DNA of 64,000 bases, from the NCBI RefSeq assembly GCF_014084125.1, contig NZ_CP048405.1, positions 6,944,001 to 7,008,000 on the forward strand, written 5' to 3'. The notes under the pieces were generated by a model that saw nothing but the letters and a program-made list of their open reading frames with translations, did no database searches and had not been told where the DNA came from. The stretch is from Streptacidiphilus sp. PB12-B1b (GTDB lineage Bacteria > Actinomycetota > Actinomycetes > Streptomycetales > Streptomycetaceae). The position numbers and the translations under genes are program-made. Numbering within the stretch: the first letter of the stretch is position 1; each line of letters begins with the position of its first letter. Below, piece by piece: positions 15,700-62,178 of the stretch.

Positions 15700-16170
15700 C
15701 TACCAGCGGTAGTGGGCGAAGGCCTTGTTGGACTCGGCCATCTTGTGCGTGTCCTCGCGGCGCTTCACCGAGGCGCCCAGACCGTTGCTCGCGTCCAGGA
15801 TCTCGTTGAGCAGGCGCTCGGTCATGGTCTTCTCGCGGCGGGCGCGGGAGTAGCCGACCAGCCAGCGCAGGGCCAGCGTGTTGGCACGGCCCGGCTTGAC
15901 CTCGACCGGGACCTGGTAGGTCGCGCCACCGACGCGGCGGGACTTGACCTCGAGGGTCGGCTTGACGTTCTCCAGGGCGCGCTTGAGCGCGACCACCGGG
16001 TCTGCGCCGGTCTTCTCGCGGACGCCCTCGAGGGCGCCGTACACGATGCGCTCGGCGGTGGAGCGCTTGCCGTGCAGGAGGATCTTGTTGACGAGCGACG
16101 TCACCACAGGGGAGCCGTAAACCGGGTCGATGATGACCGGGCGCTTCGGGGCGGGGCCCTTACGAGGCAT
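15700..16170 (-). CDS. rpsG: 30S ribosomal protein S7
   Basis: S7 (156 aa) nucleates assembly of the 30S head by binding the 3' domain of 16S rRNA and contacts E-site tRNA. The start [19 protein letters not shown], the central [11 protein letters not shown] and the C-terminal [14 protein letters not shown] are all typical, and the length is exact. It starts 2 bp after the rpsL stop and precedes fusA. Confidence 0.98.
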
Positions 16171-16172
16171 TC

Positions 16173-16544
16173 TTACTTCTCCTTCTTGGCGCCGTAGCGG
16201 CTGCGGGCCTGCTTGCGGTTCTTGACACCCTGGGTGTCCAGCGAGCCGCGGATGATCTTGTAACGCACACCCGGCAGGTCCTTCACACGACCGCCACGCA
16301 CGAGCACGATGGAGTGCTCCTGCAGGTTGTGGCCCTCGCCCGGAATGTAAGCGGTGACCTCGATCCCGCTGGTGAGGCGCACACGGGCGACCTTACGGAG
16401 AGCCGAGTTCGGCTTCTTCGGGGTGGTCGTGTACACACGCGTGCAGACGCCCCGGCGCTGCGGGGAACCCTTCAGTGCGGGCGTCTTGTTCTTCTCGACC
16501 TTGTCCTGCCGGCCCTTTCGGACCAGCTGCTGGATCGTAGGCAC
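16173..16544 (-). CDS. rpsL: 30S ribosomal protein S12
   Basis: S12 (123 aa) lies at the decoding centre and is the main site of streptomycin-resistance mutations. [12 protein letters not shown] and [12 protein letters not shown] carry wild-type Lys43 and Lys88, predicting streptomycin sensitivity at this locus. Start is GTG 16544 with GGAG upstream, giving the exact family length; an ATG much further up would add 59 non-conserved residues encoded by the leader. First gene of the str operon, under the promoter at 16756-16784. Confidence 0.97.
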
Positions 16545-31123: not shown

Positions 31124-31507
31124 TTACTTGACGGTGACCGAAGCGCCGGCAGCCTCGAGAGCGGCCTTGGCCTTCTCGGCGGCCTCCTTGGCGACCTTCT
31201 CCAGGACCGTGGCGGGGGTGCCGTCAACGAGGTCCTTGGCCTCCTTCAGGCCGAGGGAGGTCAGGGCGCGCACCTCCTTGATGACCTGGATCTTCTTGTC
31301 ACCGGCGGCGGTGAGGATGACGTCGAACTCGTCCTGCTCCTCAGCGGCCTCCTCGACGGCGCCCGGGCCGGCAACACCGGCGACGGCGACCGGGGCGGCA
31401 GCCTTGACGTCGAACTTCTCCTCGAACGCCTTCACGAACTCGGACAGCTCGATGAGGGTGAGCTCGGCGAACTGCTCGAGCAGCTCTTCCTGGGACAGCT
31501 TCGCCAT
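31124..31507 (-). CDS. rplL: 50S ribosomal protein L7/L12
   Basis: L7/L12 (127 aa) forms the flexible multimeric stalk that recruits translational GTPases. The N-terminal dimerisation helices ([27 protein letters not shown]), an Ala/Gly-rich hinge (about 36-56) and the globular C-terminal domain ([20 protein letters not shown]) are complete. It follows rplJ by 75 bp and shares its L10-regulated transcript. Confidence 0.98.
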
Positions 31508-48514: not shown

Positions 48515-50599
48515 TCAGACCGGCGTGGACGCCCCCTCCGCGGCGGCCGTCGGCGCCGGGATCTCCGGCAGCGGCGTCCGCAGCGGGAAGTGGCAGGCCG
48601 CCACATGGCCGGGGCCGAAGTGCCGCAGCTGCGGCTCCTCCTCCGCGCACCGGCGCTGCGCCAGCGGGCAGCGGGTGCGGAAGCGGCAGCCCGAGGGCGG
48701 GTCCAGCGGGCTGGGCAGCTCGCCCCTGATCCCGCCGCCGCGCTTGGTGCGCTCCAGCTCCGGCTCGGGCACCGGTATGGCCTCCAGCAGGCCCGCGGTG
48801 TACGGGTGGGCGGTGCGGTGGTGGATGTCGTCCCCGCTGCCGACCTCGACCATCCGCCCCAGGTACATCACCCCGATCCGGTCGGCCAGGTACTTCACCA
48901 CCGCCAGGTCGTGCGAGATGACCACGTACGAGAGCCGGTGGGCGGCCTGCAGCCGCTTCATCAGGTTGAGCACCTGGGCGCGGATGGAGACGTCCAGCGC
49001 GGAGACCGGCTCGTCGGCGACGATCACCCGGGGCGTCAGCGTGAGCGCCCGGGCCAGGCCGATGCGCTGCCGCTGGCCGCCGGAGAACTCGTGCGGGAAC
49101 CGATCCAGGGCGCTCTCCGGCAGGCCGACCTCGGCCAGCAGCTCGGCGGCGCGCTCCAGCCGCTCCTTGGCGGTGCCGATGCCCTGGATCTGCAGCGGCT
49201 CCAGCAGGGTGCTGCTGACCCGCATCCGGGGATCGAGCGAGCTCATCGGGTCCTGGAACATCATCTGCAGATCCCGGCGGTGGCGGCGCAGTTCGCGCCC
49301 GCGCAGGCTGCTGATGTCGGTGCCGTCCAGGCTGACCGTGCCGGAGCTGGGCCGTTCCAGGCCGACGATCATGCGGCCGAGGGTGGTCTTGCCGCAGCCG
49401 GACTCGCCGACCAGGCCGAAGGTCTCGCCGTAGCCGAGCGTGAGCGACACGTCCGAGACGGCGTGGACGGAGAGCCGCTCCCGGCCCAGGAACCCGCCCC
49501 GGCCGGCCGGGAACTCCTTGACCAGGCTGCGGACCTCCAGCAGCGGGCGGGCGTCGGCCGTCTCGACCTCGGCCTCCGCCCTGGCCTGCGCCGCGACCGT
49601 CAGCACCGGCTCGGCCGGGGGCAGCGGGCCGTCGGTCGGGTGCCAGCAGGCGAACAGGTGCTGCTCGCTCCCGGCCAGGGCCGGCTCCTCCTCCCGGCAA
49701 CGGTCGGTGGCGTACGCGCAGCGCTCGGCGAAGCGGCAGCCCCGGGGCGGGTCGGCGAGGTCCGGCGGCAGGCCGGGGACGGTGTAGAGGGCGCGGGTGC
49801 TGTCCTGGCCGAGGGTGGGCGTGGCCGCCAGCAGGCCCTGGGTGTAGGGGTGGCGCATGGCGCCGAACAGCGCGTCGGTGCCGGTGCTCTCGGCGATCCG
49901 CCCGGCGTACATGACGTTGATCCGATCGGCGTGCCCGGCCATGATGCCCATGTCGTGGGTGATCAGGATCATCGCCATGCCCAGCCGGTCCTTGAGGTCG
50001 GCGAGGAGGGTGAGGATCTGCGCCTGGATGGTGACGTCCAGGGCGGTGGTGGGCTCGTCCGCGATGAGCACCTTGGGCTCGTTGGCGAGCGCCATGGCGA
50101 TCATCACCCGCTGCCGCAGGCCGCCGGAGAGCTGGTGCGGGTAGTCCCCGAGCCGCTCCTTGGGGTGCGGCAGGCCGACCAGGCCGAGCACCTCGGCGGC
50201 CCGGTCCATGGCTTCGGCCTTCGAGCAGCCTCGGTGCAGCAGGACCGGTTCGGCGACCTGGTAGCCGATGGTCTTGGTCGGGTCGAGCGAGCTCATCGGG
50301 TCCTGGAAGACCATGGCGATCTCGTTGCCGCGCACCGCCCGCAGTTCGCGCTCGGGCAGGCCGACGAGTTCGCGCCCGGCGAGCACCACCGACGACCTGC
50401 CGATCATCGCGCCGCCCGGGGGCAGCAGCCCCATCAGCGAGAGCCCGGTCATGGACTTCCCGCAGCCGGATTCGCCGACCAGGCCGAGGGTCTCGCCCGC
50501 GTCCAGGTGGAAGGAGACGTCGTCCACGGCCTGGACCACGCGGCGGTCGCCGGTTCGGATGTGCGTGGTGAGGTGGTTGACCTCGAGGAGGGGGGCCAT
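48515..50599 (-). CDS. Fused two-domain peptide ABC transporter ATPase (DppD-DppF-like)
   Basis: A 694-aa protein with two ABC cassettes in one chain. Walker A sequences are GESGCGKS (43-50) and, in the second half, GESGCGKT; signatures are LSGGLRQR and FSGGQRQR; Walker B ends are [12 protein letters not shown] and [12 protein letters not shown]. Each half ends with the oligopeptide-transporter C-terminal Cys motif ([13 protein letters not shown] and [13 protein letters not shown]). It would drive both permeases of the operon. Start ATG 50599, 10 bp after the DppC-like stop. Confidence 0.95.
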
Positions 50600-50609
50600 G
50601 TCGTTCCCG

Positions 50610-51566
50610 TCAGTTCTTGCTCAGGCGGACGTCCAGGGCGTTGTGGACGGCGTCACCGATCAGGTTGAACGCCACCACCGTCACGATCAGGATGATCGCG
50701 GGCGGGTACACCAGCCACCAGTAGCCGTCGAAGAGGTAGTTGAGGCCGTCCGAGAGCATGGTGCCCCAGTCGGCGTGCGGCGGCGGCAGGCCGAGGCCGA
50801 GGAAGCTCAGGGTCGACAGGGTGAGGATGGCGTCGGCCACGGTGAAGGTGGCGCTGACGATGATCACGCCGATGGCGTTGGGCAGCAGGTGCCGGACCAC
50901 CACGCGCCAGCGGGTGGCGCCCATCATGGTCGCCGCCAGCACGAAGTCCCGGGTGCGCAGGGTCAGCACCTCGCCGCGCACCAGCCTGGCCACGCCGATC
51001 CAGGAGAGCAGCGACAGCAGGATGATGATCATCCACAGGTTGGGGGTGAACAGGTTCACCAGGATCAGCAGCAGTACCAGGCCGGGGACGGCCAGGAAGG
51101 TGTCGATGACCCGCATCATCAGGGAGTCCACGATGCCGCCGACCAGCCCGGCGAACGCCCCGTACAGGGCGCCCAGGACGGTGGTGGCGACGGCCACCGC
51201 GAAGCCCAGCTCCAGCGACGACCGCCCGCCCTCCATCAGCCGTCCGAGCACGTCGTAGCCGGAGGCGTCGGTGCCCAGCGGATGCGCGCTGCTGGGCGGC
51301 AGTTCGGCCAGGTCGAGCCGGACGGTCACCTGGTCGGTGTGGTAGAACAGCGGCCCCAGGAAGCAGAACAGGGCGATCACGACGACCGTCAGCGCGCCTG
51401 CGACGGCGAGCCGGTTGTGGATGAACGCCTGCCAGATGAGCCGGCCGGAGCCGGTGCGCGCGGCGAGCGCGCCCGCCTCGGCGGTCTCGGACCGGCCGGT
51501 CCCGGCGGCCCGGCCGGGCGGTTCGGGCAGCTCGGCGGTGCCGGTGCCCGGTTCAGGAGCTGACAT
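50610..51566 (-). CDS. Peptide ABC transporter permease (DppC-like)
   Basis: A 318-aa membrane protein with six helices after a Pro/Glu/Ala-rich N-terminus; HPLGTDASGYDVLGRLMEGGRSSL is the hallmark of DppC/OppC permeases and the EAA-like coupling loop is LVRGEVLTLRTRDFVLAATMMGA. The start at ATG 51566 overlaps the DppB-like gene by 14 bp. Forms the channel with the DppB-like subunit. Confidence 0.93.
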   Translation of the reverse strand: MSAPEPGTGTAELPEPPGRAAGTGRSETAEAGALAARTGSGRLIWQAFIHNRLAVAGALTVVVIALFCFLGPLFYHTDQVTVRLDLAELPPSSAHPLGTDASGYDVLGRLMEGGRSSLELGFAVAVATTVLGALYGAFAGLVGGIVDSLMMRVIDTFLAVPGLVLLLILVNLFTPNLWMIIILLSLLSWIGVARLVRGEVLTLRTRDFVLAATMMGATRWRVVVRHLLPNAIGVIIVSATFTVADAILTLSTLSFLGLGLPPPHADWGTMLSDGLNYLFDGYWWLVYPPAIILIVTVVAFNLIGDAVHNALDVRLSKN

Positions 51567-52506
51567 AGCGGATCCGTGGGTCGAGGAGGCTGTAGACGAC
51601 GTCGGCGACGAGGTTCCCGGCGACCGTGGCCACGCCGACGACCAGCGTGGAGCCCAGCAGGATCGGGTAGTCGTGGCTGGTGGCGGCCTGGAAGAAGAGC
51701 AGGCCCATGCCGGGGTAGTTGAAGACCTCCTCCGCGATCACCGCGCCGGCCACGATCCCCGGTGCGGAGAGCCCGAGCAGGGTGATGATCGGCAGCATGG
51801 AGTTGCGCAGCACGTGCCGGGCCAGCACCAGCCGCTCGGGCAGACCCTTGGCCCGGACCACCCGGATGTAGTCCTGGGCCAGGGCGTCGATCGCCGAGGA
51901 GCGCATGTAGCGGCTGTAGCCGGAGAAGCTGCCCAGCGTCATCGTCGCCAACGGCAGCACCAGGGCGCGCGGGTCGGCCAGGATGCCGCCCACCGACACT
52001 GCCTGCGGCGCCTCCGGCGGCAGCAGGTGCAGCTGCACGCAGAAGACCGAGATCAGCAGCAGCGCGAAGAAGAAGTCCGGCATGGAATACAGCACGAACG
52101 CCACCGCGGTGAGCACGTTGTCGGCGAAGCCGCCGCGCCGCACCGCCTGGCCGATGCCCAGCGGCAGGGCGATCAGCAGCGACAGCACCGTGGAGATCCC
52201 CACCAGCACCGCGTCCCTGGGCACCCGCTGGGCGATCAGCGTGGAGACCGGCTGCTGCAGCGAGTACGAGGTGCCGAGGTCGCCCTCGCACACCTGCCGC
52301 ACATAGGTGAGGAACTGCTTGTACAGCGGCTGGTCGAGCCCGTTGACGCTGTTGAAGATGGCGATGCGGCCGGGCGTGGCCTTGACCCCCAGGGTGGCCC
52401 GGGCCGCGCTCCCGGGCTCCAGGTGGAGCATGACGAAGGTCAGGACCATCACGCCGATGACGACGGCGACCGCCTGACCCACGCGCCGCAGGAGGTAGCT
52501 GCTCAC
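51553..52506 (-). CDS. Peptide ABC transporter permease (DppB-like)
   Basis: A 317-aa permease: YLLRRVGQAVAVVIGVMVLTF at the start, six membrane helices, LGTSYSLQQPVSTLIAQRVP periplasmic loop and coupling loop SSAIDALAQDYIRVVRAKGL. GTG 52506 overlaps the solute-binding-protein stop (GTGA), and its 3' end overlaps the next permease, so the operon is tightly coupled. Confidence 0.93.
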   Translation of the reverse strand: MSSYLLRRVGQAVAVVIGVMVLTFVMLHLEPGSAARATLGVKATPGRIAIFNSVNGLDQPLYKQFLTYVRQVCEGDLGTSYSLQQPVSTLIAQRVPRDAVLVGISTVLSLLIALPLGIGQAVRRGGFADNVLTAVAFVLYSMPDFFFALLLISVFCVQLHLLPPEAPQAVSVGGILADPRALVLPLATMTLGSFSGYSRYMRSSAIDALAQDYIRVVRAKGLPERLVLARHVLRNSMLPIITLLGLSAPGIVAGAVIAEEVFNYPGMGLLFFQAATSHDYPILLGSTLVVGVATVAGNLVADVVYSLLDPRIRYVSS

Positions 52507-54350
52507 TTGGTGAAGTACCAGACTTCCGGGTTCAGCCCGCCCGAGAACGGGTTGAGCGGGGTGACGCCCTGCAGGTTCTTCCGGTAGACCAGGATGGCCT
52601 CCTGGTTGGGCAGCCACAGCCACGGCAACTGCTGGGCGGTGTAGTCCTCGTAGGCGAAGAACGCCGAGGTCTGCGAGCCGAACTCGGTGGCGTTGATCAG
52701 CTGGTCCATCTCCGGGCTGGCGTAGCCGCCGGAGTTGTTGTCGCCGGTGCTGTTGAAGAAGCCGTCCCCGGCCGGGTAGAGCGGGTACGGGTCGTAGCCG
52801 TAGTCCACCAGCTGCCAGCCGCAGGTGGCGGCCGGGTGCGAGGCGGCGGTGCACGAGCCCATGGCGCCGATCAGCGTGTTGAAGGGCTCGGCCTTGAGGT
52901 TGACGGTGATGCCCTCCTGGGCCTCCGAGGACTGGATCGCCGCCTCCTGCTCACCGGTGGCGGTGTTGCCGGAGGAGTAGGCCAGTTCGAAGGTCAGCGG
53001 CTCGCCGGCGGTGATCCCGGCGCCGCACTGCGCGGGCCCGGTGCCCGGCGACTGGCAGACGGTCTTGCCGTTGGGCACCACCTTCCACCCGTGCGCCGTC
53101 AGCAGCGCGGCGGCCTTGGACGGGTTGTACGGGTAGGGCCCGCCGGACTTCTCCAGCGGCGAGGCCCAGGGCCCGGTCGCGGTCAGCGGGACCGGTCCGT
53201 TGCCCGGGTCGGCGTAGCCGCCGTAGACCTTGGAGACGATCTGCGGGCGGTTGATCAGGTCCTCCAGCGCCTGGCGCACGTAGAGCTGCTGGAGCTCCGG
53301 CCCGACCTTGGCGTTGTAGAGGTTGGGGATGATGCCGGCCACGCCCGGGATCGGGATGCTGGCCACCGAGTAGCCGTCCGCCTCCAGCGCCCCGGCCTGC
53401 TTGACGTCGTTCAGCGGCAGGCCGCCCACGTCCAGGGTGGTGCCCGAGCGCAGCACGTTCAGCTCGGCGGTGTCGGTGGTGAACGGGGTCTCGACGACGC
53501 TGGAGACGATCGGCTTGTCCGGCCCGGAGTAGTGCGCGTTGGGCACGTAGCTGTAGTAGCCGTCGGTGCGGAACGCCGACAGCTGCCAGGGGCCGTCCAC
53601 CACCTTCCACAGCGGGTTGGTGGCGAAGGTGGTCATGTCGCCGCCCTGCTTCTGCAGGAAGGCGTAGACGGCCTTGGCCCCGGCCGTGGTCTGGTCGGCG
53701 TTGCCGACGGCGCCGGTGGTGGAGGTCTTGTCCCAGGCGTGCTGCGGCAGCAGCGGGATCTCGCTGAGCACGTCGTCGGTGAAGAAGCTCGGGTTGTACG
53801 CCTTGGTGAGGTCCAGCACGACGGTGTGGGCGTCCGGTGCGGTCACCTTGGACACGTCGTCGGGGAACAGCCCGGGCACGTAGCCGGACCAGTTGGAGGC
53901 GTTGGCCTTCAGCAGGTTGTAGACGAAGGTGAAGTCCCGGCTGGTGATCGGCTGTCCGTCGGACCAGTTCCAGTCCTTCAGGCCGATGGTGACCTGCTTG
54001 TCGCCGTCCCCGTAGACGATGGAGGTGGTCAGGCTCTCCTGCGGGTTGATCACCGACTGGGCGCCGTCGCCGGAGTAGACCAGGAAGGGCCACATGCCCT
54101 GGGTGAGGTTGACGTTGTAGCCGTCGGTGTTGGTCGCCGGGGTGAGCGGGAAGACGAAGTTGGGCGAGGCGCCCACCTCGGCGATGGTGACCGTTCCGCC
54201 GTGCTGCAACTGGCCCTTGGGCGCGGAGCTGCCCGAGTTGCCGTTGCCTATCGCGCCGCCGGATCCGCTGCTGCCACCGCTGCACCCCGCCACGGTCAAC
54301 GCCAGAGTCAGTGCGACCGACGTGACGGCCAGATGGCGGGTCATTCTCAT
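52503..54350 (-). CDS. Peptide ABC transporter solute-binding lipoprotein (SBP_bac_5 family)
   Basis: A 615-aa precursor. The signal peptide ends in the lipobox TVAGCSGG (Cys23), then a Gly/Ser linker and the SBP family 5 fold (LTTSIVYGDGDKQVTIGLKD, then WNWSDGQPITSRDFTFVYN). It captures peptides, or possibly nickel or other ligands, for the two permeases and the fused ATPase downstream. ATG 54350; ATG 54344 is equally possible. First gene of a four-gene operon; a Crp-like site lies about 130 bp upstream. Confidence 0.92.
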   Translation of the reverse strand: MRMTRHLAVTSVALTLALTVAGCSGGSSGSGGAIGNGNSGSSAPKGQLQHGGTVTIAEVGASPNFVFPLTPATNTDGYNVNLTQGMWPFLVYSGDGAQSVINPQESLTTSIVYGDGDKQVTIGLKDWNWSDGQPITSRDFTFVYNLLKANASNWSGYVPGLFPDDVSKVTAPDAHTVVLDLTKAYNPSFFTDDVLSEIPLLPQHAWDKTSTTGAVGNADQTTAGAKAVYAFLQKQGGDMTTFATNPLWKVVDGPWQLSAFRTDGYYSYVPNAHYSGPDKPIVSSVVETPFTTDTAELNVLRSGTTLDVGGLPLNDVKQAGALEADGYSVASIPIPGVAGIIPNLYNAKVGPELQQLYVRQALEDLINRPQIVSKVYGGYADPGNGPVPLTATGPWASPLEKSGGPYPYNPSKAAALLTAHGWKVVPNGKTVCQSPGTGPAQCGAGITAGEPLTFELAYSSGNTATGEQEAAIQSSEAQEGITVNLKAEPFNTLIGAMGSCTAASHPAATCGWQLVDYGYDPYPLYPAGDGFFNSTGDNNSGGYASPEMDQLINATEFGSQTSAFFAYEDYTAQQLPWLWLPNQEAILVYRKNLQGVTPLNPFSGGLNPEVWYFTK

Positions 54351-55195: not shown

Positions 55196-55573
55196 ATGAA
55201 CTCTACCGAGACCGAGCCCGCCGATATCAATGTCGATGATCTGTGCTCCTACGCCGTCGATGTATGGGTGAGCGACGCCAGCATCCTCACGGACGAGCGC
55301 CGTCTGCTCGACCTGCTGCGCACGGCCGCCGAGAAGGGCAACGCGAAGATCCTGGGCGAGGCGTCCCACATCTTCCCGAACGGCGCGGTCACCGCGATCC
55401 TGCTGCTCTCGGCCTCGCACCTGTCCATCCACACCTGGCCGGAGTTCAGCCTGGCCAACGTCGACCTGCTGGCCTACGGCCGCCTCAACGGCGAGCGCAT
55501 GATGGAGAGCGTGGAGACCGGCCTCTCCCCCACCAAGATCAACGTCTCCCGGCTGCTCCGCGCGGTCCACTGA
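55196..55573 (+). CDS. speD: SpeD-family pyruvoyl-dependent decarboxylase with altered active site
   Basis: A 125-aa class 1B S-adenosylmethionine decarboxylase homologue. SASHLSIHTWPE carries the self-cleaving Ser74 (future pyruvoyl) and His79. Against the T. maritima enzyme, the proton-donor Cys83 position (FTCG) is Tyr94 here (LAYG), and the residue before Ser74 is Ala rather than Glu. It may make decarboxylated AdoMet, the aminopropyl donor for the BpsA-like enzyme at 59390-61240, or have become an ornithine/arginine decarboxylase, as published for other divergent SpeD. ATG 55196 lacks an RBS; TTG 55169 with GGAG upstream is an alternative. Confidence 0.85.
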   Translation: MNSTETEPADINVDDLCSYAVDVWVSDASILTDERRLLDLLRTAAEKGNAKILGEASHIFPNGAVTAILLLSASHLSIHTWPEFSLANVDLLAYGRLNGERMMESVETGLSPTKINVSRLLRAVH

Positions 55574-57997: not shown

Positions 57998-58276
57998 TCA
58001 GCGGGGCAGGTGCACGGCCACGTAGGCGCACAGCGTGGCAATGGATTCCAGCGAGTCGAGGTCGAGATCGCCGTCGGCGACGTCCAGGCCGTACTCCCGC
58101 TCGATACCGGCCAGCAGATTGGCGCCGGACAGCGAGGAGAGGCCGATCACCGGCCCGAACAGCGGCGTGTCCGCCGCCCATGCGGAGACCGCCCCCGGGT
58201 CCAGGCCGAGCGCGTCGGCGAGCAGCGGGCGCACCACGGCCTCGATCGCGGCGAGAGTGGGGTCACTCTCCATCAT
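57998..58276 (-). CDS. Stand-alone acyl carrier protein
   Basis: A 92-aa four-helix carrier protein. The phosphopantetheine site is in GLSSLSGANLLAGIEREYG, where the usual DSL is SSL; the Ser before Leu is the attachment residue. LDLDSLESIATLCAYV is the last helix. Such ACPs accompany FkbH enzymes and receive their C3 unit. ATG 58276 (or 58273) overlaps the FkbH-like stop by 11-14 bp. Last gene of the BpsA/GNAT-FkbH-ACP operon; the Sfp-type transferase at 61438 is the likely activator. Confidence 0.85.
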   Translation of the reverse strand: MMESDPTLAAIEAVVRPLLADALGLDPGAVSAWAADTPLFGPVIGLSSLSGANLLAGIEREYGLDVADGDLDLDSLESIATLCAYVAVHLPR

Positions 58277-59390
58277 CCAGTTCTCTTCCTGGCTCGACCA
58301 CGTCCAGCCAGGACGGGAAATTCGGGAGAGGATCCAGCAGGGACCGGCCCAGTCGGCGCACCCGCGGCTCGCGGGCAGGGATCCCCTCGGCTTCGACAGC
58401 AGCATACGACGACGGGGCGCCAGGCTCCGGCAAGAGATCGGCCGACCGGCGCAGCCCCGCCTGCCGGAACAGCAGCCGCAGCTCGACGTTGGCGGAGGTC
58501 GGCGCGGAGTCCACCAGCAGTTCCCCGGCCCCGCAGCGCCGGGCCTCGCGCATCACCCCGTACAGGAAGGCCGCGGACACCCCGCGCCCGGCCACCCGGC
58601 AGGACAGGGCCAGCAGCCGGACGGTCCAGGCCGCCGCGCCGCGCTCCACCAGAGCCGCGCCGATCAGGCCGTAGTCGCCGAAACGGTCCTCCAGCCGGGC
58701 GGTCAGCAGCAGATGGCTGCCGTCGGCGAGCAGCCCGCGCACCCGGTCGGCGTCCAGCTCCAGCCCGGAGGAGTTCAACCGGTGGGTGCGGGCCGCCAGT
58801 TCCACGAAGCGTGGGACGTCGTCCGGCCGCGCCCGGGTGAGCGTCAGCCGCATCCGGCAGGATTCCAGGAACTGCTCGCGGGGCCCGTCGAAGGAGCGGC
58901 CGGCCCGGCTGCGCTGCTCCTCGTCGCGGTAGCGGCCGACCCTGTTCCGGGCGTCGCCGGTCACCGGCTGCCCGGCCAGCGCCGCCAGCAGCTCCGCGAC
59001 CTCGTCCGGCCGCAGCACCTGGGCGTCGGGCAGCATCGCCGCCACCTCGGCCCGCTCGTACGGGTTGTCGTCGACCAGGGCCAGCGCCTCCACCCCGATG
59101 CCCAGGTCGGCGGCGATGGCCCGCAGCGAGACGCTCTTGTCGCACCAGCCGACCTGCGGGGCGAGGAACCGCCCGGCCAGCCGGGGGTCGGCCGCGACCA
59201 GCTCCAGCACCGCGGGATCGGTGCGGCTGGCGATGCTGCTGACCACGCCCATGGCCGTCAGTGCGTCGACCGCGTCGAGCGCGGGTGGGCGCAGCTCCGG
59301 CAGTGTGCCGGGGGGCGACTCGACGGCGACCCCGTCCCACAGGGTGCCGTCGAGGTCCCACGCCACACACTTGATGCGACCCGCATGCAC
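58263..59390 (-). CDS. FkbH-like HAD/GNAT glyceryl-ACP synthase
   Basis: A 375-aa FkbH-family protein. The HAD phosphatase N-terminus has CVAWDLDGTLWDG (nucleophile D12, D14), Lys85 and VDDNPYERAEV (106-116); the C-terminal GNAT-like half has FGDYGLIG and LSCRVAGRGV with the conserved Cys. Known FkbH enzymes take 1,3-bisphosphoglycerate, remove phosphate and load glyceryl on an ACP. No FkbI/FkbK-type dehydrogenases are nearby, so the product should remain a glyceryl unit. GTG 59390 overlaps the upstream gene's TAG (TAGTG). Confidence 0.88.
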   Translation of the reverse strand: MHAGRIKCVAWDLDGTLWDGVAVESPPGTLPELRPPALDAVDALTAMGVVSSIASRTDPAVLELVAADPRLAGRFLAPQVGWCDKSVSLRAIAADLGIGVEALALVDDNPYERAEVAAMLPDAQVLRPDEVAELLAALAGQPVTGDARNRVGRYRDEEQRSRAGRSFDGPREQFLESCRMRLTLTRARPDDVPRFVELAARTHRLNSSGLELDADRVRGLLADGSHLLLTARLEDRFGDYGLIGAALVERGAAAWTVRLLALSCRVAGRGVSAAFLYGVMREARRCGAGELLVDSAPTSANVELRLLFRQAGLRRSADLLPEPGAPSSYAAVEAEGIPAREPRVRRLGRSLLDPLPNFPSWLDVVEPGRELDDGE

Positions 59391-61240
59391 TAGCGGCCGC
59401 CCTCCGGCAGCCTCAACCGCATGGCCATGTGGGCCGACTCGAAGCCGAACTTGCGGTAGAGCGCCCGCATCGGCAGGTTGCCGCTGTACACCCGGCCGAC
59501 CACCTCGGTCGGGCGCTGCTCGCGCGCGAACCGCAGGCCGACGCTGATCAGCTGCTCGGCCACCAGGCTCCGGTCCTCACCGGGCGCCACCGCCAGGGAG
59601 CGGAAGTTGACGTACGAGTTGCCGGTCATGGCGTTGCGGTTGACGCTCATCCACACCCAGCCGACGACCTGGTCGTCGGACTCCTGGCAGGCCACGAACA
59701 TGCCGACCTTGGACCGGCTCATCGCCTTGGCCAGGCGCGAGCGGTGGGTCGGCAGGTCGTCCACGGCGTGCTCCTGGAAGGAGACCTGGGCGATCTCCAC
59801 CTCGAAGGCGGCGATGGCGTCCAGATCCCGCTCCTCGGCGGGCCTGATCCGGTAGCCGTCCAGCTCGCGGGGCCGGTAGCCGGTGGGCAGCCCTTCGGCC
59901 GCCCGCACCGGGGCGTCGTCGTCCGCCCGGGCGTCGTCTGCGTCGTCCAGCGGGACGTCGTACGCCGGGTGCTCGTCGGCCTCGGTCGGCTGCTGCGCAC
60001 CGTCCGGCTGTCCCAGGCCCTCGGGCTGCCGGGGCTCGTCCGGCCGCTTGGTCTCCGGGACCAACTGGCGCGGACGGAACGGGCCGCCGCCGCACTCCGG
60101 GCAGCCGTCGGCGCGCAGCGCGGCCACGGACTGCCAGCGGGCGCCCTGGCCGACCACGATCCGCGCCCGGCAGGAGAGGCACGCGAACACGCGCTGCTGC
60201 GGCCGCTTGTCCCGGGTGTACATGGGGCCCTGGTAGGAGCCGTCGACGGACGAGCGGGTGGAGCCGGTGGTGAGCAGGTGCTGCAGGAATCCGGAGCCGC
60301 CGATGATCCCGCTGCCCTCGTATTCGTTGAAATTGTTGATGTAGCCGTTGGTGACCAGGCCGAGTTCCAGGATCTCCTGCTGCACGGAATACAGCTCGTC
60401 CGGGCTCTTGGGCCCGAAGGAGAAGAAAATACTGTTCGCCGGACCGGGGCGGAGCCCTTCGACCGCGCGGGAGAGGAATACCCGGGCGCCCTCGGCGGTG
60501 TACGGCGGATCGGTCATGGCGACGTCGAACTGGCGGCACAATTCCTCGGGCAGCGGCAGCCGGAGGTCGTGCTGGTACGTCTCGATTCCGAATCCGTGTT
60601 TTGCGGAGACCTCCTCGACATAACCGAGGATATCCGGCGAGATGTCGACCACGGCGATGCGCTGGGCCAGGCGGACACCGAGGACCTCGGCGGCGACCGC
60701 GACCGCGAGCGAGACCAGGTCGTCGTCGCCGACCAGCAGCAGCGATCCACCGGGCAGCGCGCCCGCGCGCAGCAGCGCGAGCACCCGGCGCACCTTGGTC
60801 TCCGGGGTGCACCTGGACTGGTCAAGGCTCATGTCCGCCAAGGGCCCGACGTCCATCAACGCCTGCATCCGGGCCGCCATCTCGTCCAGCGCGGCAGGCA
60901 CGGTCACCTCCCGGCCGTGGCACTGCGGGCAGGTCGGATCCATGGCGAGGTCCATGCCGAGATCCGCGGCCAGCTCCAGCCCGGCGGCGGTGAGCTGCGA
61001 GGGGCGCTGCCGGGTCAGGATGCCGCGGCGGCGGAGTTCATTGCTGATGGCGGCGATGATGGGAACCGGAATACCCGTCGCCCGGCTGATCTCTTTGGTG
61101 GCGGCCGGAGCAAGCCGCCGGATTGCGCGCAGAACGGACCGGACGCCTACAGCCCCCTCCTGCAGACGAACCGCATTCGCAACTTCTTGGAGGAGCTTTT
61201 CGGCAGAATGTTCTTGCGGATCCAGGTGCAGATGCGTCAC
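59390..61240 (-). CDS. BpsA-like branched-polyamine synthase fused to a GNAT domain
   Basis: About 616 aa with two enzymes in one chain. Residues 1 to about 395 match archaeal/thermophile N4-bis(aminopropyl)spermidine synthase: a winged-helix N-terminus, CPQC (106-109), the donor site LLLVGDDDLVSL (169-180) and catalytic TDPPYTAEG (245-253), then a four-Cys ribbon (C356, C359, C382, C385). An acidic linker (about 395-460) leads to a GNAT domain (about 464-612: VNFRSLAVAPGEDRSLVAEQ). It likely adds aminopropyl groups to a polyamine and may acylate it. Start: GTG 61240 (TTGGAAA upstream); TTG 61246 is the alternative. Confidence 0.85.
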   Translation of the reverse strand: MTHLHLDPQEHSAEKLLQEVANAVRLQEGAVGVRSVLRAIRRLAPAATKEISRATGIPVPIIAAISNELRRRGILTRQRPSQLTAAGLELAADLGMDLAMDPTCPQCHGREVTVPAALDEMAARMQALMDVGPLADMSLDQSRCTPETKVRRVLALLRAGALPGGSLLLVGDDDLVSLAVAVAAEVLGVRLAQRIAVVDISPDILGYVEEVSAKHGFGIETYQHDLRLPLPEELCRQFDVAMTDPPYTAEGARVFLSRAVEGLRPGPANSIFFSFGPKSPDELYSVQQEILELGLVTNGYINNFNEYEGSGIIGGSGFLQHLLTTGSTRSSVDGSYQGPMYTRDKRPQQRVFACLSCRARIVVGQGARWQSVAALRADGCPECGGGPFRPRQLVPETKRPDEPRQPEGLGQPDGAQQPTEADEHPAYDVPLDDADDARADDDAPVRAAEGLPTGYRPRELDGYRIRPAEERDLDAIAAFEVEIAQVSFQEHAVDDLPTHRSRLAKAMSRSKVGMFVACQESDDQVVGWVWMSVNRNAMTGNSYVNFRSLAVAPGEDRSLVAEQLISVGLRFAREQRPTEVVGRVYSGNLPMRALYRKFGFESAHMAMRLRLPEGGR

Positions 61241-61271
61241 AATCAATTTCCAAATGTAGGTGCTGCCAGGG

Positions 61272-61278
61272 TATCATA
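61272..61278. promoter_or_regulatory. Overlapping divergent -10 boxes between the BpsA-like and PPTase genes
   Basis: TATCATA reads as TATCAT on the plus strand (61272-61277) and as TATGAT on the minus strand (61278-61273), both good -10 hexamers in GC-rich DNA, about 30 bp from the BpsA-like start and 160 bp from the PPTase start. No clear -35 elements, suggesting activator dependence. Inference. Confidence 0.35.
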
Positions 61279-61396
61279 GACCGCCCATTCCGGCGGCGGT
61301 CGACGGAGCAGGCTGTATCGGCAGGGATCATCCCACCTCCCGGCCGCGCGGGCGGTGCTCACCCTTCCAGCCGAAACGCAAAGGACGACAGCCGGC

Positions 61397-61441
61397 ATGT
61401 ATGTCGGAACCACGCACCCCGCCCCCGGCCGGGCCGCATGA
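61397..61441 (+). CDS. Possible 14-codon upstream ORF coupled to the PPTase gene
   Basis: ATG at 61397 opens MYVGTTHPAPGRAA, ending in TGA that overlaps the PPTase ATG (ATGA, 61438-61441). AAAGGAC lies upstream of it, whereas the PPTase ATG itself has no obvious ribosome-binding site. A translational-coupling leader is plausible; chance cannot be excluded. Confidence 0.4.
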   Translation: MYVGTTHPAPGRAA

Positions 61442-62178
61442 CCGGCCTGCCGCCCGGCGGCGCGCGGGTGTGGTGGGCCCGCCCGGCCGACGCGCACGGC
61501 TCGCTCAGGGACCTGCTCGATCCGGTGGAGCGCGCGCGCTACGAGACCACGCTGCGGCCCGAGCGCCGCGCCGCGTTCCTGCTCGGCTGCGCCCTGGCCA
61601 AGCTGGCACTGGGCGAGTGCCTCGGTCTCGCGCCCGGCGATGTCCGCCTGCTGCGCTCCTGCCCGAACTGCGGCGGACCGCACGGCCGGGTCGGCGTCGA
61701 GGGCCAGGGGCCGGACGGGATCGGGCTCTCGATCACCCATGCCGGCGCGCTGGTCGGCGTGGCCCTGGGCGACGGATTCGAGGTGGGGCTGGACGTCGAG
61801 CCGCTGTCCACCCGGGCCGACGTGGACGCGCTGGGGCCGAGGGTCCTCGGCGCGGAGGAGTGGCAGGCCCTGGCCGAACTCCCGGGCGAGCAGCGGCGCG
61901 AGGCGTTCGTCCGCTCCTGGACCCAGAAGGAGGCGGTGCTCAAGTGCTACGGCGTCGGGCTCCGGACGCCGTTGCGGGCGCTGCGGCTGGCGCCGCCCGG
62001 GCAGCCGCCCGCGCTGCTCGCCTGGCCGAGCCGGCCGCAGGCCCCGGCCGAGGTGCGGCTGACCGGGATCCGGCCGGACCGGGAGCATCTCGCCTGCCTG
62101 GCCGCCCGGACGGACACCGCGCCCGCCGTCGCCGGCGGCTTCGCCGGGCACCGGCTGCGCGCCTGGGCCACGCGGTGA
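61438..62178 (+). CDS. 4'-Phosphopantetheinyl transferase, Sfp type
   Basis: A 246-aa Sfp-superfamily enzyme that converts apo carrier proteins to the holo form with CoA. GIGLSITHAG (94-103), the Mg-binding VGLDVEPL (116-123: D119, E121) and RSWTQKEAVLK (159-169: W161, K164, E165) are intact. Its divergent position next to the ACP operon makes that ACP its probable substrate. ATG 61438 is chosen because upstream in-frame sequence crosses the divergent promoter region. Confidence 0.92.
   Translation: MTGLPPGGARVWWARPADAHGSLRDLLDPVERARYETTLRPERRAAFLLGCALAKLALGECLGLAPGDVRLLRSCPNCGGPHGRVGVEGQGPDGIGLSITHAGALVGVALGDGFEVGLDVEPLSTRADVDALGPRVLGAEEWQALAELPGEQRREAFVRSWTQKEAVLKCYGVGLRTPLRALRLAPPGQPPALLAWPSRPQAPAEVRLTGIRPDREHLACLAARTDTAPAVAGGFAGHRLRAWATR

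Follow-up and report, generated by a model that had tools for sequence, protein, structure and literature searches.

Polyamine synthesis and carrier-protein chemistry are, to our knowledge, not known to meet in the form described here. For the branched-polyamine synthase BpsA, a 2026 review (PMC12979288) gives the roles of the GDDD motif, of residues of the substrate site (Asp225, Glu259 and Tyr290) and of an acidic tail, and the C-terminal acidic cluster is said there to carry the aminopropyl group. In S-adenosylmethionine (AdoMet) decarboxylases, Ser63, His68 and Cys83 are named in PMC10407285, and Cys83 is needed in the known enzymes. FkbH together with an acyl carrier protein (ACP) is held to make glyceryl-ACP in the tetronate and methoxymalonate pathways (PMC7489565). 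We analysed a 64,000-nucleotide stretch of Streptacidiphilus sp. PB12-B1b (contig NZ_CP048405.1, forward-strand positions 6,944,001 to 7,008,000), referred to below as the window, in which relatives of these enzymes are encoded close together: a BpsA-GNAT fusion, an FkbH-type enzyme, a stand-alone ACP, a phosphopantetheinyl transferase (PPTase) and SpeD, an AdoMet decarboxylase homologue. We concluded that BpsA-GNAT, FkbH, ACP and SpeD very probably form one functional unit, because the block is conserved in 32 loci with varied flanks and because BpsA-GNAT and ACP-SpeD fusions occur. We further propose, with a probability of roughly 0.45, that the unit is a self-contained small-molecule pathway to an acylated polyamine.

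A conserved block of polyamine and carrier-protein genes

The four genes that the preliminary description had placed at 57998-62178 of the window are present, all with domain scores over the cut-offs. The BpsA-GNAT fusion (59390..61240, minus strand) carries in one frame a BpsA_C domain (Pfam PF01861, 142.1 bits against a cut-off of 27) and a C-terminal GNAT domain (Pfam Acetyltransf_1, 27.7 bits against 20.7); it starts by homology at GTG 61240, or else at TTG 61246, which would give 618 amino acids (aa), and its frame ends at 59390. Next on the same strand are the FkbH-type enzyme (58263..59390), a haloacid dehalogenase (HAD)/GNAT-like protein that likely loads glyceryl onto the ACP (TIGR01686, 166.9 bits against 146.65), and the ACP (57998..58276; Pfam PP-binding, 33.0 bits against 20.8), the start of which is by homology ATG 58276 (or 58273) and not 58405. 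The Sfp/AcpT-like PPTase (61438..62178, plus strand; Pfam ACPS, 55.9 bits against 25) begins at ATG 61438 and diverges from the fusion across the intergenic region 61241..61437. The overlapping starts and stops reported for the three minus-strand genes were confirmed: the TAG stop of BpsA-GNAT and the GTG start of FkbH share one base, and the ACP starts 14 bases within FkbH. The earlier inventory was thus real and at the same time incomplete, having overlooked SpeD (55196..55573, plus strand; Pfam AdoMet_dc, 77.3 bits), which has Tyr replacing the catalytic Cys83 and is part of the unit. SpeD lies 2.4 kb beyond the ACP, with a gene of the S30AE (ribosome hibernation factor) type in between.

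Besides the window, 31 other distinct loci (22 streptomycete-type and 9 from Pseudonocardiaceae) have BpsA, GNAT, FkbH and ACP next to one another; the gene order thus extends beyond this strain and occurs in two families. In 28 of the 32 loci, the window counted, SpeD lies no more than about 10 kb away from the block. A profile search of genome contigs with the BpsA alignment gave 24 loci, 21 actinobacterial and 3 from Bacillales. Three of the actinobacterial loci are cut by contig ends and were left out (L040, L042 and L050; also L018); the remaining 18 all have SpeD, BpsA, GNAT, FkbH and ACP, the last four adjacent in 18/18. The total of 32 consists of the window, these 18, six further distinct loci of the window's family and seven of Pseudonocardiaceae, since two of the nine Pseudonocardiaceae genomes with the full block belong to the 18. 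L016, L018 and L021 were left out as 100% identical repeats of L028, L040 and L041; L031 was counted as streptomycete-type because its genes fall among those loci; and in L043, where the FkbH frame extends over the ACP region, the ACP was counted from a tblastn match. The Bacillales loci (L047-L049), which have BpsA without the block, and G133 (L025), likewise without it, were not counted. Of the 16 uncut streptomycete-type loci from the profile search, 15 have the PPTase close to the block, as do all six further loci of the window's family, each of which has all six genes; in neither Allokutzneria is it near the block. An alpha/beta hydrolase gene is additionally present in some loci.

The distribution is sporadic: of 14 genomes from the window's genus, one has a full-length fusion and two more gave weak matches confined to the GNAT part. 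Such a pattern could arise from chance neighbours or decaying remains. The conserved order in effect refutes this explanation: it is maintained in 32 loci of two families with varied flanks (the window, L016, other Streptomyces and the Pseudonocardiaceae loci have different neighbouring genes), and the window frames are open. The BpsA and FkbH distances also correlate (Spearman 0.938 over 406 pairs, a figure inflated by shared ancestry). We regard chance or decay as very improbable. In the window's family, BpsA_C was matched in 11 of 394 genomes, ten with this type and one weakly (G133); the window SpeD was matched in 13 of the same 394, ten at 83-100% identity and three at 27-30%, and the ten genomes with this BpsA are the same ten that have the close SpeD. 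The fusion shows 57-67% identity to its homologues in nine loci. One genome of the family, G127, matches a Streptomyces actinomycinicus contig with 100% identity over 19 kb, which places the window's genome in the Streptomycetaceae.

In the family of Allokutzneria (Pseudonocardiaceae, 297 genomes), a close BpsA (369-621 bits) was found in ten genomes, including the two Allokutzneria from the profile search, and 181 others gave weaker matches. GNAT and FkbH follow BpsA in 10/10, with the ACP next in nine. GNAT is a separate gene in nine of the ten and is fused to BpsA in G816, as in the streptomycetes. SpeD adjoins the block in four genomes, is ∼9 kb off in G816 and lies elsewhere in the genome in five. 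In G996, the genome without the adjacent ACP and the most distant of the ten, ACP and SpeD share one 216-aa frame (L166 7501-8151, minus strand); this SpeD is of the Cys type, and the BpsA-GNAT-FkbH operon is elsewhere (L143). Many genomes of the same family also encode a distant BpsA_C relative (about 500 aa; e.g., L144 and L145). It was set apart by score (best 167 bits among the matches listed, against 369 or more), and in L145 it is divergent from an ATP-binding cassette (ABC) transporter of the glycine-betaine type. Phylum-wide, BpsA_C was matched in 25 of 396 genomes, in 14 of them over the cut-off. G525 (L104) has a two-gene SpeD-BpsA pair with no GNAT, FkbH or ACP beside it, on a contig that ends ∼1.5 kb on; on one reading, such a SpeD-BpsA pair later gained the acyl half.

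The window is otherwise largely housekeeping (ribosomal proteins, EF-G, EF-Tu, RNA polymerase, NusG and SecE), and its two genes of >1000 aa encode RNA polymerase subunits. The Pfam scan covered 47 of the 50 called genes (15700-16170, 16173-16544 and 31124-31507 left out). Among these 47, no polyketide synthase (PKS), nonribosomal peptide synthetase (NRPS) or NRPS-independent siderophore (NIS; IucA/IucC) synthetase was found, which agrees with the earlier remark that no PKS or NRPS stands alongside. Oligopeptide-type ABC transporter genes (48515-54350; fused ATPases, two permeases and a binding protein) adjoin SpeD. They were not counted in the unit because the part compared (50001 on) is not common to L016-L026.

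The aminopropyl half, the acyl half and the GNAT domain

The BpsA part aligns with relatives from Thermococcus, Pyrococcus and Thermus (PDB 5xnc, E 2.9e-32). In its structure model (mean predicted local distance difference test score, pLDDT, 79.2), BpsA relatives top the structure matches, at a template modelling (TM) score of about 0.5 and with the domain placement unsure. The catalytic domain of the window protein (60275..60877, minus strand; Pfam and alignments) has the motifs GDDD, DPPYT and NFNEY. In motif counts over 29 loci (L017, L019, L022 and L023 out; L020 and L024 in), GDDD and DPPYT occur in 29/29 BpsA and NFNEY in 27/29 (absent from L136 and L143). The equivalents of Asp225 and Tyr290 are kept (D246 and Y309 in the window, by alignment with a 20-residue offset of the PDB chain allowed). 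Downstream of the BpsA core, the alignment shows a zinc-ribbon-like segment with four cysteines (Cys4; 60092..60181, minus strand) that are invariant in 14/14 rows, three Bacillales among them; the Bacillales BpsA from Brevibacillus and Siminovitchia (L047-L049) have the same segment. The linker of the window protein contains an Asp-rich stretch that is not present in the other sequences of the BpsA alignment.

SpeD is the sole PF02675 match in the window's genome and keeps Ser63 and His68 in the alignment. Of 10 other genomes checked, 8 likewise have no AdoMet_dc type except this cluster type of SpeD (two copies in G781); it must therefore make decarboxylated AdoMet there, if BpsA acts as BpsA. 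In Siminovitchia, a Cys-type SpeD comes directly after BpsA. A Cys-type SpeD is likewise part of a gene row in L108 and L109 (G224 and G227), where Pfam on L108 recognised ATP-grasp ligases, a radical S-adenosylmethionine protein, a major facilitator superfamily transporter, a methyltransferase and an amidohydrolase; this row is possibly another SpeD-using metabolite cluster.

For the acyl half, the DLDxT and SCR motifs are present in 29/29 cluster FkbH and are common to the FkbH of two methoxymalonyl cassettes from Streptomyces plasmids. The ACP serine lies in an SSL motif in the window and in (S/T)SL in 28/28 homologues, which resembles the SS motif of methoxymalonyl-cassette ACPs. Enzymes that convert glyceryl-ACP to methoxymalonate or tetronate were not found beside the block, and a plain glyceryl unit is therefore the simplest guess. 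By analogy with the described pathways, FkbH likely loads the ACP with glyceryl here. The idea of a broken methoxymalonyl cassette was dropped because the order is conserved and the frames are open.

The GNAT domain (59438..59851, minus strand; Pfam, alignment and model) is predicted to have an ordinary GNAT fold (mean pLDDT 84.6). The coenzyme A (CoA) loop of GNAT enzymes usually reads Q/R-x-x-G-x-G/A. In the window it is degenerate (R-x-x-V-A-E), and R-x-x-(V/I)-(A/G)-E is found in 29/29 cluster GNATs, with Glu in the usual Gly/Ala place. A Tyr before the last strands is invariant in 15/15 rows. The altered loop would suit a donor that has no CoA pyrophosphate, such as acyl-ACP; it fits such a donor and is not proof of it.

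The proposed pathway and its alternatives

In the proposed pathway, SpeD would make decarboxylated AdoMet, and the BpsA domain would move the aminopropyl group from it to an amine, either a diamine or a polyamine. The PPTase would arm the ACP for loading by FkbH; the three-carbon acid attached would most likely be glyceryl, derived from 1,3-bisphosphoglycerate. The fused GNAT would then acylate the amine with the ACP-bound unit, so that an acylated (glyceryl) polyamine results. Gene identities, motifs, grouping and fusions were observed, the chemistry of each step is taken from the enzyme families, and the identities of the accepting amine and of the acyl unit are guesses, as is the joining step. 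A glyceryl-polyamine product formed via the GNAT is a tentative proposal. The route in full, in which a Tyr-donor SpeD feeds a Cys4-type BpsA and a CoA-independent GNAT takes glyceryl from the FkbH-loaded ACP to the aminopropyl amine with no PKS or NRPS, is somewhat doubtful.

Several observations, given here with the alternatives they bear on, weigh against this pathway. The equivalent of Glu259 is lost in BpsA (Pro in the window and Gly in eight other alignment rows, in a single alignment near a gap). There is no conserved acidic tail; the Pfam match stops at 198/243 and the Cys4 segment follows. Of the acylated branched polyamine put forward in the preliminary description, the conserved unit, the kept motifs of BpsA, FkbH and ACP and an aminopropyl half strengthened by SpeD stand, whereas "branched" is not safe, given the lost Glu259 and the Cys4 segment in place of the acidic tail. 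In SpeD, Tyr replaces Cys83 in 32/34 alignment rows (three rows are duplicates), and the two Siminovitchia rows have Cys. The same Tyr is found in the SpeD of seven further Pseudonocardiaceae genomes and of G525, and in L141 within a slightly different motif; all cluster SpeDs seen except that of G996 have it. The SpeD of G996, that of Siminovitchia and the second SpeDs found in nine Pseudonocardiaceae genomes have Cys at position 83. Tyr can act as proton donor in the pyruvoyl enzyme aspartate decarboxylase. The Tyr at Cys83, the lost Glu259 and the Cys4 segment would also be consistent with a SpeD and BpsA that have left polyamine chemistry, another substrate being decarboxylated and another group transferred, and some relatives of SpeD are active on ornithine or arginine (PMC10407285). 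Such a departure is quite unlikely in our view: GDDD, DPPYT and mostly NFNEY are kept, and the cluster-type SpeD has no other AdoMet_dc type beside it in the window's genome and 8/10 others. For SpeD itself, activity as an ornithine or arginine decarboxylase was judged less likely, as in most cluster genomes checked it is the only AdoMet_dc type and BpsA keeps its motif for decarboxylated AdoMet. The genome of the window also has three Spermine_synth and four Orn_Arg_deC matches; decarboxylated AdoMet may therefore serve other enzymes, and the acceptor is not fixed. In addition, a PPTase of the window type was not found next to the block in the Pseudonocardiaceae loci.

At the joining step, comparison of the GNAT fold with the PDB singles out no substrate. 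The fold is near many acetyl-CoA enzymes, including the polyamine acetyltransferase DpA, as would be expected if BpsA-GNAT made an N-acetyl polyamine with acetyl-CoA while FkbH and ACP served another step, e.g., presenting an ACP-bound amine or acid to BpsA. The ACP-SpeD fusion in G996 would suit such a carrier-bound substrate. The CoA loop altered in all 29 GNATs, with Glu for the usual Gly/Ala, argues against acetyl-CoA as donor, and we consider an N-acetyl product unlikely.

The acylated polyamine may also be an intermediate of something larger. In G816 (L137 155-11630), one strand carries an N-hydroxylase, a pyridoxal phosphate (PLP) decarboxylase and a class-III aminotransferase, and the other a BtrH_N protein, an IucB-like GNAT, BpsA-GNAT, FkbH, ACP and IucA/IucC. 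This gene row is a siderophore-type cluster around the module. The preliminary description would have given way if homologues belonged to a known larger cluster; that is the case in part, for G816 only, and the window is without PKS or NRPS. In BtrH catalysis, an amine receives its acyl group from an ACP. G277 carries a second SpeD(Tyr) locus (L026 3874-10877), which contains a PPTase, a PIG-L protein, an alpha/beta hydrolase, a BtrH-like protein, an ACP-like frame (recognised by eye) and a diverged BpsA_C, and has no FkbH; in G781, with genes similar to those of the G277 locus, a BtrH-like protein is about 0.3 kb from the second SpeD(Tyr). Among 27 genomes searched for BtrH-like proteins, matches of any strength were obtained in five, in three of these at E below 1e-60. 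Encounters between polyamine enzymes and carrier proteins thus occur more than once, and the product of the window may be a building block. It would then supply the aminopropyl or acyl-aminopropyl arm of a larger, siderophore-like metabolite, the remaining genes for which would usually not be linked to the module. The G816 block, set between the IucB-like GNAT and IucA/IucC, and the BtrH-like genes of G277 and G781 argue for this. We consider it somewhat unlikely, as the arrangement was seen in 1/10 Pseudonocardiaceae genomes with the block, no IucA/IucC was found in the 47 window genes scanned, and the flanks of the other loci (partly scanned) differ.

If the self-contained pathway to an acylated polyamine is correct, polyamine synthesis and carrier-protein chemistry would be joined in about six genes, and polyamine conjugates of a new family would result. 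With no PKS or NRPS core to detect, rule-based cluster finders could overlook them. Two of the enzymes would be of interest for enzymology, the SpeD because Tyr occupies the catalytic Cys position and the GNAT because its donor may be acyl-ACP, and the pathway would bear on the role of BpsA outside thermophiles. No description of such a pathway, and nothing that links FkbH with polyamines, was found in the open-access literature, from which subscription papers are mostly absent, so that this is weak evidence of novelty. The text of the branched-polyamine review (PMC12979288) does not contain Streptomyces, "actinobacteri", "actinomycet", GNAT, acetyltransferase or fusion.

Comparison with known systems

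The methoxymalonyl-ACP cassette (FkbH, ACP, two dehydrogenases and an O-methyltransferase) has the same kinds of FkbH and ACP as the window, with shared motifs. Its acyl-CoA dehydrogenase, 3-hydroxyacyl-CoA dehydrogenase and O-methyltransferase are present in L110 and L111, whereas no dehydrogenases, O-methyltransferase or PKS were found with the window block, which has polyamine enzymes instead. The glycerate-utilisation operon of tetronates also pairs FkbH with a stand-alone ACP, taken to give glyceryl-ACP (PMC7489565); FabH-like, acyltransferase and dehydratase partners as in that operon were not seen next to the block. No genes of NIS siderophore clusters were recognised in the 47 window genes scanned, whereas in the relative G816 such genes surround the block. 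The cluster SpeD belongs to the same family as class 1b AdoMet decarboxylase and keeps its Ser63 and His68; it differs in the Tyr at Cys83 and, among the genomes checked, is confined to such loci and the G525 pair. With the BpsA of Thermococcus kodakarensis and Thermus thermophilus, the window protein shares a homologous core and the GDDD, Asp225 and Tyr290 equivalents. It differs from these characterised enzymes in the lost Glu259, in a Cys4 segment rather than an acidic tail, and in being fused to, or standing beside, GNAT, FkbH and ACP.

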